A stretch of 64,000 nt of DNA from Limosilactobacillus caccae (lineage in GTDB: Bacteria > Bacillota > Bacilli > Lactobacillales > Lactobacillaceae), in NCBI RefSeq assembly GCF_900156885.1, contig NZ_FTOY01000011.1, positions 362,501-426,500 on the forward strand, given 5' to 3'. Numbering within the stretch: the stretch's first letter is position 1; every line of letters starts with the position of its first letter. A model generated the notes under the pieces. It was given only the letters and a program-made list of their open reading frames with translations, had not been told where the DNA came from and did no database searches. Position numbers and translations under genes: made by a program. Shown here one piece after another: positions 3,303 to 12,238 of this stretch.

Positions 3303-4101
3303 GTAAATCTTCCTCACTTTCAATAAATTCTTGCATCATCCGAGAATCCATCAGTGTTAAATGGTCAAAGAACTGGGTTTGCCATGACCCGAGACCAACG
3401 GAGTGACGGTTAGCGATAACCCCGCTAGCTGAAAACATGGTAGTCGCAATCATGCAGGCCTTTAACTGGTTCCCGGTCACGGCTGCAAAGGCGGCAATGA
3501 TACTGGAAAGCATATCGCCACTGCCAACGTTAATGGCTAACATTGGCGTTTCTAACTCGTTGCGATAGGTGTGCTCACCATCGGTAATGGTGTCAATTTT
3601 ACCAGTGAGCACGACGATGGCGTGGTATTTTTGCGCACACTTTTTTGCCAGGCTGACCTGGTCGCTGACAACACCGGCATCGATTCCGTGGCTCTTGCCG
3701 GTTTCACCGACGAGGGCGGCAATCTCTCCGGCATTTCCGCGGATAATATCGAAATGGTACTTCGCTAATAGGTCGGTGGCAATTTTTCGCCGGGACGGGA
3801 TGGCCCCCACGGCGACCGGGTCCAGAACAAGTGGCTTACTGTCGTCAGTGGCCCGCAAGACGGCATAGATTTGCGTAAGCTGGGCTGCGTTAATTGTCCC
3901 GAGATTGATCGTAATCGCATCCGCAATTGCGACCATTTCACTGCTTTCAGCAGCATCAGTCGACATGATGGGGGAGGCCCCAATTGCGCTGAGGGCGTCA
4001 GCAACCTTACTAATCGTGACCGTGTTAGCAACCGTCAAGACGAGGGGGTTCTGCCTTTTGACCCGGTCAATTAGCTGCCAGTTAATCTTCTTGTTTTGCA
4101 T
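3295..4101 (-). CDS. thiM: Hydroxyethylthiazole kinase
   Basis: Phosphorylates 4-methyl-5-(2-hydroxyethyl)thiazole in thiamine salvage. About 268 aa from the ATG at 4101, chosen because AGGAGG stands 5 bases upstream; an in-frame ATG at 4125 would begin inside the upstream terminator stem. Motifs: SPIMSTDA, VLDPVAVGA, RGNAGEI, VVLTGKID, and NVGSGDMLSS at 191-200. In the enzymes I remember, such as B. subtilis ThiM/ThiK, the position of D196 is a cysteine; here it is the aspartate usual in ribokinases. First gene after the TPP riboswitch. Confidence 0.94.
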   Translation of the reverse strand: MQNKKINWQLIDRVKRQNPLVLTVANTVTISKVADALSAIGASPIMSTDAAESSEMVAIADAITINLGTINAAQLTQIYAVLRATDDSKPLVLDPVAVGAIPSRRKIATDLLAKYHFDIIRGNAGEIAALVGETGKSHGIDAGVVSDQVSLAKKCAQKYHAIVVLTGKIDTITDGEHTYRNELETPMLAINVGSGDMLSSIIAAFAAVTGNQLKACMIATTMFSASGVIANRHSVGLGSWQTQFFDHLTLMDSRMMQEFIESEEDLHD

Positions 4102-6452: not shown

Positions 6453-7100
6453 TTACTCAAACTTGAAATTCTGAACAACCTTGTCCAAGTCTTCCTGTTC
6501 AATTCCCAAATAATGGCGGGTATTTCGCTCTGATGAGTGGTTAAAAAGTTGGGAAATGATTTCAACGTTAACCCCTTTTTTGTAGAGTTGGCGACCGAAC
6601 GTCTTCCGGAAGGAGTGGGTACCTAACTTGGCAGCAATTTTCTTATCACCAGTCTTCCGGGCCATCCGCTGTAACATCTCGTAAAAGCCATGAACCGAAA
6701 AATGCCCATCCTGCTTGCCAGGGAAGAGGTAGTCATTTTCATCATGGTAGTCGAGGTCGTTAAGGTAGTCGATGATCTCTGCCAAACAGTTATTCCAAAA
6801 AAGGGTCTTTGCTTTGCCGGTTTTTTGTTCGATTACCCGGGTCTTCGTCTTGTTAAGGACGTGACCCACGCGTAAGGTAACAACATCAGAGGCGCGCAGC
6901 CCATTATTAAGGGCAATCGCAATTAGCAACAGGTTACGGTTAACTAATTCCGGACGGGAGTACAGCTTAATCGTTTCACGAAGACGGTCATATTCTTCGA
7001 GGGTTAAATACTTAACGGATTCGACCCAGATTTTACGTTTTCCTTTGACTTGTCCGTTAGTTTTATTCTTGGGAATGTAGACTCGCTTCTTAGTTGACAT
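6453..7100 (-). CDS. Tyrosine recombinase / site-specific integrase, catalytic domain only
   Basis: 215 aa, much shorter than a full integrase (about 300-400 aa): it lacks the N-terminal SAM-like core-binding domain. The catalytic set is complete: R69 (NNGLRASDV), K93 region, H162-x-x-R165 (THSFRK), H188 (FNHSS) and nucleophile Y197 (TRHYLG). A basic N terminus (KKRVYIPKNKTNGQVKGKRK) may help DNA binding. There are no phage or transposon genes nearby. Short stand-alone recombinases of this kind are common in lactobacilli and include invertases; the target site is unknown. Confidence 0.88.
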   Translation of the reverse strand: MSTKKRVYIPKNKTNGQVKGKRKIWVESVKYLTLEEYDRLRETIKLYSRPELVNRNLLLIAIALNNGLRASDVVTLRVGHVLNKTKTRVIEQKTGKAKTLFWNNCLAEIIDYLNDLDYHDENDYLFPGKQDGHFSVHGFYEMLQRMARKTGDKKIAAKLGTHSFRKTFGRQLYKKGVNVEIISQLFNHSSERNTRHYLGIEQEDLDKVVQNFKFE

Positions 7101-8379: not shown

Positions 8380-10776
8380 ATGTTAGAACGTAAAGAACAT
8401 AAAAAGATGTACAAGAGCGGCAAGAATTGGGCAGTAGTAACTCTTTCAACTGCCGCTTTAGTACTTGGTGCATCCAGTGTGACTGCATCAGCAAATACGG
8501 AAACAGAAACGAACAACAATAACACAGATACTGTCCAGGTAACGACGGAAGACAGTAACGTCAATGTTAAGAGCATTAATTTTAATGGGGGGGGGCAAAC
8601 TGCCGCTTCTAGTGACTCAGTAGTAAGCACTAAGGACAGTGCTGTGGCTTCAACAGCCGTAAATTCAGCTAGTGCATCCACTAAGGCTACTGCACAGGCC
8701 AGCGATGCATCTTCATCATCAGCTTCAAGTGCTAGTTCGAGTGACAGCAAAGGGGCGGTTGCTAGTGCTAGTTCTTCAACTGATAAGAAGAGTGCGGCGG
8801 CAAAACCAGCTACAAGCGCTAATAATAATGAAGAAAAAGTTACAGATAGCGCAGAAAAGCAAGCTAAATCTGCTAGTGAAGAAGGCAAGAAGGCTGATGA
8901 TAATGCCGCAAAGCTAAACAAAAATGCAGCAGCAGTAGTTAAGAATGCTGGTGTTGATCCAGCAAGTTTAACTGCTGACCAAATCAAGGCATTAAATAAG
9001 GTTAACTTCTCTAAGCGGGCAAGAACTAGTGCTCAAATGACGTACCTTGACTTTCAAAAGATCGCTGATACGTTGATTAAGCAAGATCCACGTTATGCCG
9101 TACCATTCTTTAACGCTAGTCAAATTAAGAATATGCCAGCTGCAACGACTCGGGACGCACAAACTGGGATTGTTCAACCATTAGATGTGTGGGATTCATG
9201 GCCAGTCCAAGATGCGACGACTGGTTACGTTACTAATTGGAATGGCTACCAATTAGCCGTTGCAATGATGGGTGTTCCTAACACTAACGACAACCACATT
9301 TACCTTCTTTATAACAAGTATGGTGATAATAACTTAGCTGACTGGAAGAATGCCGGCCCAATCTTTGGCTTTAACGCTGATGCACTTACTCAACAGTGGT
9401 CTGGTTCAGCAACTGTTAATAGCGACGGTTCTATTCAGTTGTTCTACACAAAGGTTGATACTTCTGATAATAATTCTAACCACCAAAAGATTGCGACAGC
9501 AACGTTATACCTTAACCACGATGACAACACCGTTTCAATTGCCAAAGTTGAAAATGACCATGTTATCTTTGAAGGTGATGGCTGGCACTACCAAACCTAT
9601 GCGCAATGGCGTGCCACTAACAAGGGTGCTGATAATATCGCAATGCGGGACGCGCACATCGTCAAGGATAACGAAGGCAACCGTTACCTTGTCTTTGAAG
9701 CAAGTACTGGTTTGTCAGATTACCAAGGCCCTGAACAAATCTTTAACTGGTCTAACTATGGTGGCGATGACCACTTTAACTACAATAGTTTCATCCGTCT
9801 GTTAGACAACAAGGACATGAACAGTCGGGCAAGCTGGGCTAACGCCGCGATCGGGATCATTAAGCTTAATAACGATGAAAAGAACCCCCAAGTGGAAGAG
9901 GTCATGAGTCCATTGCTTACTGCGAACATGGTAAGTGACGAGATTGAACGGCCAGACGTTGTTAAGTTAGGTGACAAGTACTACCTCTTCGCAGCAACCC
10001 GTTTAAACCGGGGAAGCAATGATGATGCATGGATGAAGGCTAACTACAATGTTGGTGATAACGTTGCCATGGTTGGGTATGTCTCTGATAACCTGACTAG
10101 TGGTTTTAAGCCATTGAATGATTCTGGGGTTGTTTTGACGGCCTCCGTTCCTGCTAACTGGCGGACTGCTACTTACTCTTACTATGCGGTTCCAGTAGAA
10201 GGAAAGGACAATCAAGTTCTTATCACTTCTTACATTACTAACCGTAACGGTGTAGCAGGAGAAAACATGGACTCAACATGGGCACCAAGCTTCTTGCTCC
10301 AAATTAACCCTGATAACACGACGACTGTTTTGGCAAAGATGACCAACCAGGGGGACTGGATCTGGGATGACTCCAGTGAAAACCTTAGTATGCTTGGGGA
10401 TCTCGATTCAGCTGCCTTGCCAGGTGAACGTGAAAAGCCAGTTGACTGGGATCTGATTGGTTGCGGGCTTAAGGATCACGATCCAGAGAAAGCACCACAA
10501 GACCAACCAAAACAGCCAGGTACTCCTGAAACGCCAACGACACCAGAAAAACCAGGGACGCCTAATACTCCAGGTACCCCTGAAACACCGAAGACACCGG
10601 GAACGCCAACAACCCCAACGACACCTGAGAAGCCAGGCACTCCTTATGACCCTGCCCAACCAGCACGCTTACCACAAACTGGTAATGCTAGTGCAAAGGC
10701 CGCAATGGGCTTAGGCGCAGCAACGCTTCTTGCAATGTTTGGCCTTGCCGGTGCAAACAAGCGTCGCTATTACTAA
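8380..10776 (+). CDS. Cell-wall-anchored GH68 fructansucrase, probably inulosucrase
   Basis: Polymerises fructose from sucrose into fructan at the cell surface. 798 aa. KMYKSGKNW at 9-17 is a textbook KxYKxGKxW signal peptide, with cleavage likely near A38. A Ser/Ala/Thr-rich spacer runs from about 40 to 215. The GH68 domain follows: nucleophile D272 (VWDSWP), transition-state stabiliser D424 (MRDAH) and acid/base E523 (DEIERP). These three numbers and the length match what I recall for L. reuteri 121 inulosucrase; levansucrase is the alternative. PXX repeats ([13 protein letters not shown]) lead to LPQTG, a hydrophobic segment and KRRYY. Start at ATG 8380, with AAAAGGGG about 10 bases upstream. 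Codons 70-72 are a G9 run. Confidence 0.93.
8587..8595 (+). repeat. G9 homopolymer inside the fructansucrase reading frame
   Basis: Nine consecutive G encode three glycines (residues 70-72) upstream of the catalytic domain. At nine bases the frame is open; loss or gain of one G would truncate the enzyme before GH68. Confidence 0.95.
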
Positions 10777-10894: not shown

Positions 10895-11068
10895 CTAGGC
10901 AGTATATTTACTGTATATTGGTTCGAGGACCTTTCTGCAGTAGTAGCAGTGAAGGTGACCATTTTTGTCTGCTAGGCGTTTTGCATCAAGTGATGAAAAC
11001 GTATAGTGCTCATGACAGAAGGGGCAGACGTATTGTTTCTTCCCAAACAATGAGTTGATCAAGCCCAA
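10895..11068 (-). CDS. 57-aa zinc-ribbon protein (TTG start)
   Basis: Found by reading the gap between fructansucrase and xerS. The protein begins MGLINSLFGKKQYVCPFC and has two knuckles, C15-x2-C18 (CPFC) and C41-x2-C44 (CYYC), spaced like a four-cysteine zinc ribbon. The start is TTG at 11068 with GGGAGG 8 bases upstream; no ATG gives the full domain. A TATAAT lies at 11110-11105. Likely a small nucleic-acid or protein-binding accessory factor, but no specific function can be named. It is flanked by its own terminator and sits 69 bp downstream of xerS. Confidence 0.75.
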   Translation of the reverse strand: MGLINSLFGKKQYVCPFCHEHYTFSSLDAKRLADKNGHLHCYYCRKVLEPIYSKYTA

Positions 11069-11137
11069 GATACTTTCCTCCCGATAAAAATTTGCGCCAG
11101 AACTATTATAAACTAAATTATCGCAGATTAAAAGTAA

Positions 11138-12238
11138 CTATTCAGTTTTCGGTTCAGTTTCCGGTAAACTATTGCTTGCTGCATTCGCGCTAATCTCGTT
11201 CAGGGCTTGCCGTTGCTGCTGCTGGTCAACGTGGGTATAAAGGTCCGTTGCTGACGTTCCCTTTTGGCCCAGTTGCTGGGCGACCAGAACCTGATCCTTT
11301 GTCACTTCGTACATCTCCGAAGCAAGGGTGTGGCGCAGCTTGTGGGGGGTGAGGGGATGGCCGAAGGCAGTTGAATACTTCTTAACCATCTTTTCAATTG
11401 CGTTGGCCGTCATCCGCCTGGTCTCTTGATGGTAGCGGGTCAAGAAGAAGGCGGTATCCTTTTTAAGGGCGTGGTAGCGCTGGCTCCGGATCTCCTGATA
11501 AGCGGAAACGTACTTGATCGCCCAGGGAGCAATCGGTACCGAGTCCCGCTGGCCACCTTTCCGGGTCACATCGAGTAGCTGCTGCTTGAGGTTGAGGTCG
11601 GCTAGGTTAACGTTGGCCGCCTCAGACACCCGGACGCCAGTGCCGAGGATCAGGGCAATGATGGCGATATCCCGCTCCTTATTGACCTTATACGCCGGAA
11701 GGGCCCGCTTGTCACACTTGGTTGGATACTCGTTTTCAATGAAATTGATGAAGTCAAACTTCATCTGTCCCCGGTACATGTGGGCCGCCAGGGTATGGGC
11801 CCGGTAGTTTAAGGTCTTCGTGTCATTGAGCGAATCAATCTTTAGCATGACATTTCGGTCGAAGTAGGGTTCACCATTGTTGTTATCGGCGGTGATTGTC
11901 AGAAACTTGTAGAGTGAACGCAGGGCGTTGATGGACCGGTTGATTGAGGTCGGGGAATTAAGCCGCCCCTGGGCATTGGTCGTGTGCTGGAGGTGGTCAA
12001 TATAAAGCATGATGTCATTTCGCCGGAGATTTTCTAAGGCCGTCACTGGTAGTTCACGATTAGTGGGTGTTTCGACAAGGCCACTTGCCCGCAACCAGTC
12101 AAAGAAACGGCGGATCTCCGTTAGGTATTGGTAGGTCGTTGTCACGGCATGGTTTGTCCCCAGGTAGTATTCGTTAACGTAGTCGGGAAGGTTTTGTAAT
12201 TCTTCCTGGATCAACTTTAAGTACTTATCTGCTTCCAT
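11138..12238 (-). CDS. xerS: Tyrosine recombinase XerS
   Basis: A 366-aa two-domain recombinase. The N-terminal core-binding domain (about 15-125) contains YQYLTEIRRFFDWL; the catalytic domain (about 180-345) has R203 (GTGVRVSEA), K227 (TRKGGQRD), H299-K-L-R302 and nucleophile Y334 (TDLYTHV). At the second histidine position of the family (LGH) this protein has Q325 (LGQKGTSATDLYTH). Length and the TDLYTH ending resemble XerS, the single chromosome-dimer-resolution recombinase of streptococci and lactobacilli. It is housekeeping rather than a phage integrase. No dif-like site was identified by eye in the flanks. Confidence 0.82.
   Translation of the reverse strand: MEADKYLKLIQEELQNLPDYVNEYYLGTNHAVTTTYQYLTEIRRFFDWLRASGLVETPTNRELPVTALENLRRNDIMLYIDHLQHTTNAQGRLNSPTSINRSINALRSLYKFLTITADNNNGEPYFDRNVMLKIDSLNDTKTLNYRAHTLAAHMYRGQMKFDFINFIENEYPTKCDKRALPAYKVNKERDIAIIALILGTGVRVSEAANVNLADLNLKQQLLDVTRKGGQRDSVPIAPWAIKYVSAYQEIRSQRYHALKKDTAFFLTRYHQETRRMTANAIEKMVKKYSTAFGHPLTPHKLRHTLASEMYEVTKDQVLVAQQLGQKGTSATDLYTHVDQQQQRQALNEISANAASNSLPETEPKTE

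Follow-up and report, generated by a model that had tools for sequence, protein, structure and literature searches.

A nine-guanine tract in a predicted fructansucrase gene of Limosilactobacillus caccae, proposed as a slippage switch, and long G runs near surface signals in the genus

In Limosilactobacillus caccae, a predicted fructansucrase gene of the GH68 family has been identified in a 64,000-nucleotide stretch of DNA, which was analysed as a whole and is referred to here as the window. The parts of this gene and their coordinates are listed in Table 1. The encoded protein scored 431.3 bits against the Glyco_hydro_68 family (cut-off 27), and its signal peptide was recognized by both PF19258 (44.8 bits, cut-off 23.6) and TIGR03715 (32.8 bits, cut-off 18). 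Pro/Thr repeats lie between the catalytic domain and the LPQTG sorting signal, and no anchor was among the Pfam matches listed. The nearest solved relative is 8xvp, Inulosucrase, with 1191.8 bits over query residues 1-797; with this structure, as with 8xvr and 2yfr, the protein shares the GH68 family and the overall architecture. Genes of the phage-integrase family of recombinases flank the fructansucrase region on both sides (window positions 6453-7100 and 11138-12238, both on the minus strand).

Table 1. Parts of the predicted fructansucrase gene, in window coordinates
Feature	Position	Strand	Basis
GH68 fructansucrase gene (inulosucrase/levansucrase type, predicted), 798 aa	8380..10776	+	Pfam Glyco_hydro_68, E 5.3e-129
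KxYKxGKxW signal peptide, residues 3-42	8386..8505	+	PF19258, E 1.2e-11; TIGR03715
Variable Ser/Thr/Ala/Asn-rich N-terminal region, the interval between signal and catalytic domain; contains the G9 tract	8506..9018	+	Sequence
G9 tract, codons 70-72 (Gly-Gly-Gly), proposed slippage site	8587..8595	+	
GH68 catalytic domain, residues 214-661	9019..10362	+	Pfam
LPQTG sorting signal, hydrophobic stretch and positive tail	10669..10776	+	Read from sequence

The tract reads AAT GGG GGG GGG CAA in its codon context. The original prediction had placed it after the signal peptide and before the catalytic domain, which is exact by the Pfam limits of the two domains. It had also expected a short peptide after a one-base change, and this was borne out, as eight G leave 80 residues and ten G leave 77. 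In the in-silico frame test, a tract of twelve G keeps the fructansucrase frame open with 799 residues. Because the signal is encoded upstream of the tract and the catalytic domain downstream of it, the effect of a slip should be all-or-none. The tract is thus placed as in a contingency locus, that is, in frame, near the 5' end and at a site where a single-G change abolishes the predicted product. Homopolymers become prone to slippage at a length of about seven to eight or more. The three glycines appear to fall outside the part needed in at least some solved GH68 enzymes, because the best aligned stretches of three chains (8xvr, 2yfr and 2yfs) begin only at query residue 123 or 156, 3' of the tract; the 8xvp chain aligns from query residue 1, with the tract region included. 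Length changes by three at these glycines should be tolerated.

We propose that the G9 tract is a poly-G contingency locus that switches the fructansucrase on and off, and we give this reading a probability of roughly 0.6, the tract having been read in one assembly of the species. DNA polymerase would slip on the nine G during replication, with one G added or lost. The G9 form would be the ON state, yielding a secreted, wall-anchored fructansucrase, and a gain or loss of one G would yield a peptide of 77-80 residues that keeps the signal and contains no enzyme. Later slips would restore the fructansucrase gene. With slippage of this kind, a minority of the cells in a clone would be unable to make fructan from sucrose. 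We infer that slippage at the tract is frequent enough to be of consequence and that selection keeps the tract.

The G9 tract is the longest G/C run of the 2.24-Mb genome, in which 269, 20, 3 and 1 runs have lengths of at least 6, 7, 8 and 9, respectively (numbers derived from overlapping-match counts). Run length alone argues weakly for a switch, because a geometric extrapolation gives 0.11-0.45 runs of at least nine per genome against the one observed, so that a G9 is only mildly unlikely. Similarly, the window holds no excess of G7 strings, its three overlapping matches all belonging to this run, against a mean of 5.74 in dinucleotide shuffles. As to position, the genome has three runs of G8 or longer, and two of them, the fructansucrase G9 and one G8, lie in KxYKxGKxW genes. 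The chance of this is about 1e-4, a figure in which the G9 that prompted the question is itself counted. The genome has 17 exact-G7 runs, of which one is intergenic and the other 16 fall within frames of 146 codons or more; a KxYKxGKxW or YSIRK signal is close to none of them.

The G8 run (locus L166, C2:321235-327242) is in another KxYKxGKxW surface gene, within the part for the signal peptide; this gene encodes more than 1000 residues with DUF4767 and is divergent from a LytTR response regulator and an apparent kinase of that regulator. This G8 is a candidate for a second switch in the same genome. The third run of at least G8 (L179) is intergenic, on a 17-kb contig, and a screen of this locus for known RNAs gave no Rfam match. 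In addition, at one of the G7 runs (L165:2583-3918) an apparent MATE-type transporter gene is divided into two frames, of 167 and 323 codons, so surface genes are not alone in having frames interrupted at G runs. A large LPXTG protein adjoins the split transporter on the opposite strand. Another G7 of the genome (L174) lies, by eye, within a signal-like start, a kind of case that the motif script used below scores as non-surface.

To place these runs in the genus, 50 Limosilactobacillus genomes, including that of L. caccae, were searched for runs of at least nine G (G9+). Such runs are present in 27 of the genomes and number 61 in all, the window counted. A fixed script then looked for a KxYKxGKxW or YSIRK motif in six frames within 450 nt of each run; it knows these two motifs only, and proteins with a plain signal peptide score as non-surface in every set. 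The comparison sets were 47 G7 runs (30 tool-picked loci from 26 genomes and all 17 exact-G7 runs of L. caccae) and 32 G8 runs (30 tool-picked loci and two from L. caccae). A surface signal was found near 12 of the 61 G9+ runs and near none of the 47 G7 runs (0/30 tool-picked and 0/17 own; Fisher p 0.001, or p 0.002 for 11/60 without the window), p values that are too small because orthologous runs (L110/L148 and L127/L150) were counted separately. Only one of the 32 G8 runs is near such a signal, namely the L. caccae G8 described above. The coding strand carries the G in all 12 surface-linked G9+ cases. For the KxYKxGKxW signal alone, 6 of 60 runs (window excluded) were found against 0.25 expected from 419 Pfam matches in the 50 genomes, which on this definition cover about 0.41% of the sequence (p 2e-7, too small for the same reason).

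Long G tracts are over-represented in surface or defence genes of this lineage, although these do not hold the majority, as 49 of the 61 G9+ runs and 31 of the 32 G8 runs are away from KxYKxGKxW and YSIRK signals. Long runs are not exclusive to surface genes, since some lie, by eye, in phage-like genes or in ordinary intergenic places. The longest run found is a G14 (L144, tract 4001-4014, minus strand), whose neighbours look phage-like by eye. Across the 26 genomes besides that of L. caccae that have G9+ runs, the exact run lengths are 343 G7, 61 G8, 31 G9, 21 G10, 7 G11 and one G14; selection of the genomes by their G9+ runs biases the tail upward. The steep fall to G8 and the flattening at G9-G10 are as expected if slippage drives the expansion of the runs.

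The state of the reading frame was followed in nine intragenic cases, comprising the window gene, L110, L111, L113, L125, L146, L148, L160 and the L. caccae G8 gene. Four of these are in frame; in the other five (L110, L111, L113, L146 and L148), the frame is interrupted at the run or shortly after it. For three of the broken genes (L111, L113 and L148), a different number of G is by itself enough to open a long frame. In L110 and L146 the frame stayed closed at every run length tried, and these genes therefore carry further damage. L125 is open only with what appears, by eye, to be a second, compensating indel. Outside the nine, L132 has no signal motif by the script and, by eye, a stop in the signal region. 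Pfam identified Muc_B2 in L110, L148 and L160, MucBP_2 together with Muc_B2 in L111 and L117, and Rib domains in L113. By eye, L110 (genome G012) and L148 (G011) are the same gene in two species, with a thioredoxin-like gene adjacent; the G9 is 110 nt from the signal motif in both, and the frame is broken at the run in both assemblies.

Long runs were also seen in a restriction gene and in an operon. An MmeI-type restriction-methylation gene (L142:3716-6539), with MmeI methyltransferase and target-recognition domains by Pfam, has its frame broken at a G10 run, which makes it a candidate for phase-variable restriction. In five genomes (G014, G019, G030, G031 and G062; loci L107, L119, L121, L128 and L139), a G9-G10 run lies 8-15 nt 3' of a cpsB-like gene in an EPS operon, with the flank well conserved in three of the five. 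In L107, the one of the five taken to Pfam, CpsB_CapC is 5' of the run and Bac_transf 3' of it. This run is a possible switch of EPS synthesis.

On the wider scale, the genus probably has a poly-G contingency set, of which the fructansucrase would be the species-specific member in L. caccae and the L166 G8 a second switch there. Such a set would include the fructansucrase, surface proteins with a KxYKxGKxW or YSIRK signal (those with mucus-binding or Rib domains), restriction genes and the EPS operon, with the run in the gene or just upstream of it.

The GH68 genes of related species bear on the age of the tract. In all, 34 GH68 loci were scanned from -300 to +700 nt of the start, a set that includes the window and a few duplicates and in which some starts are approximate. 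Two loci besides the window have a run of at least G7. In L. psittaci (L040:2664-2671), a G8 lies upstream of the gene, exactly between TTGACA and TAGAAT with a 19-nt spacer. Spacer-length switches of this type are known from Neisseria. In Ca. L. faecipullorum (L053), a G7 lies in the signal peptide. The site that corresponds to the L. caccae tract was found by motif in eight loci, with duplicate species among them, and in all eight it is encoded without a G run, as LGSGQ or LGEAQ in mixed codons. In this the genomic loci of the family to which 8xvp, 8xvr and 2yfr belong differ from the window gene, and it is, at the level of species, the outcome that the original prediction had counted against itself. 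Conservation of the tract at the orthologous site across species, which would have been supportive and is not required, was thus not found. The relatives without a run imply that the tract is specific to L. caccae; it does not follow that the tract is stable. Because the site of the relatives has mixed codons, the tract probably arose in the lineage of L. caccae itself.

Two GH68 loci showed other irregularities. In L. taiwanensis DSM 21401 (L050), a TAG interrupts the open frame of the gene 195 codons in, and the copy is possibly broken or sequencing-affected. At L004 (genome G018), the usual first residues are absent, a stop stands directly before MYKSGKNW, and the gene is downstream of a zinc-ribbon-like frame whose relative in the window is found 3' of the fructansucrase gene, on the opposite strand (10900-11083, minus). 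L004 has probably undergone a local rearrangement.

A second strain of the species was also sought. Among the genome contigs, from which the records of the L. caccae genome itself were possibly omitted, there was no GH68 gene of more than 69% identity over most of the length. An exact 32-mer had no match in viral contigs, and plasmids yielded DNA of 60-80% identity in 12 records, none covering 80% of the query.

The absence of the tract from related species fits a neutral origin, in which drift brought three GGG codons together in a linker under no constraint; the gene would stay stably ON, and a frameshift would be an ordinary, rare loss. The variable linker in which the tract sits agrees with this explanation, as do the window shuffles and the large share of G9+ runs away from the surface signals tested. 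However, a neutral run would not readily account for an enrichment of surface signals that is seen for long runs and not for G7, for the presence of two of the three own-genome G8+ runs in one class of genes, or for a length distribution that flattens above G8, albeit in genomes chosen for G9+ runs. On balance, we regard a neutral tract as rather unlikely. Even a neutral G9 may switch, because longer runs raise the frequency of frameshifts (PMC2831843). The original prediction of a slipped-strand contingency locus is upheld in part: the anatomy and the genus survey of long G runs in surface genes speak for it, and the GH68 site of the relatives, which is without a run, speaks against it.

Two other explanations were weighed. 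Transcriptional slippage or ribosomal frameshifting on the G9 could put a fixed fraction of the messages out of frame and so tune the dose of the enzyme. The gene is in frame in the DNA and homopolymers of this length can cause polymerase slippage; however, the frames of the relatives are broken at G runs in the DNA itself, which points to change at the DNA level and makes an action on expression very improbable. It is also highly unlikely that the assembly miscounts the tract and that the consensus has another length, for although homopolymers are error-prone in assembly and contigs end at a G10 in G011 (L147 and L151) and at a G9 in G072 (L163), the G9 keeps the 798-residue frame open and the genome is in only 11 contigs.

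Switching by slippage at a G-tract, the reading preferred here, has counterparts in Mycoplasma and Bifidobacterium. A further case, possible phase variation of a glucan-making enzyme in Streptococcus gordonii, was sought in the literature and not confirmed. The gsmA gene of Mycoplasma agalactiae is not known to belong to GH68. It resembles the fructansucrase gene in having a G-tract in its coding sequence and in being required for the secretion of an extracellular polysaccharide, beta-1,6-glucan, as cited in PMC9187656; it differs in being another gene, in a ruminant pathogen. In Bifidobacterium breve UCC2003, slippage at intragenic G-tracts switches sortase-dependent pili (PMC9187656). The likeness is close: a gut commensal, a sortase-dependent surface protein, an intragenic G-tract that also lies between the coding parts for the secretion signal and LPXTG, and an OFF form that is truncated. 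The B. breve case differs in that a pilus gene is concerned and tract lengths were measured, whereas in L. caccae the gene encodes a sugar-polymer enzyme and the tract is known from one assembly.

In lactobacilli, frameshifts led the discussion in PMC5566788 to suggest that two L. casei adhesins might be phase-variable, with no tract named, and the phrase 'phase variation' occurs once each in the accessible text of PMC4667430 and PMC12688256. Phase variation in PMC6122466 concerns restriction specificity units, and PMC12413058 deals with Bacteroides. No report of G-tract switching in Limosilactobacillus or of a phase-variable fructansucrase was found in the open-licence literature, which was covered largely at surface level. 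Within that literature, the earlier statement that phase-variable fructan production is undescribed for lactobacilli stands. The mechanism is already known elsewhere, in the Bifidobacterium pili, and on the sources searched a G9 fructansucrase switch would be new for Limosilactobacillus.

If the proposal is true, cells of one pure culture of this lactobacillus would differ in fructan production, and the trait would be unstable. Fructan is relevant to sourdough texture, prebiotic effects and biofilm. More broadly, clonal populations of gut symbionts would mix surface states by way of the poly-G set, and probiotic-type lactobacilli would be using a form of slippage switching that is known mainly from mucosal pathogens. 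A simple genetic cause, open to testing, would then underlie inconsistent adhesion and slime from culture to culture.

Other recurrent sites of G runs were noted in the course of the survey. With the L. caccae LytTR response regulator as the query, 28 loci were found, and 6 of them have a G/C run of at least eight in the roughly 400 nt upstream, a proportion that is partly circular because the locus was examined after runs had already been noticed there. A divergent KxYKxGKxW motif is present at 5 of the 28 loci, three of which are among the six with a run. The run lies in the signal peptide of the divergent gene in L. caccae and is intergenic in G011 and G015, with offsets approximate where loci are at contig ends. 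Runs in promoter spacers were rejected as a general rule, as 5 of 91 G8+ runs (the hand-added L. psittaci locus included) fall between -35 and -10 hexamers versus 6.25 in flank shuffles; the L. psittaci G8 stands out as a single case. In three genomes (L108, L152 and L162), a G10-G11 run separates a divergent regulator-like gene from a PTS EIIC gene, the latter identified by Pfam on L108 only and followed by an apparent serine dehydratase.
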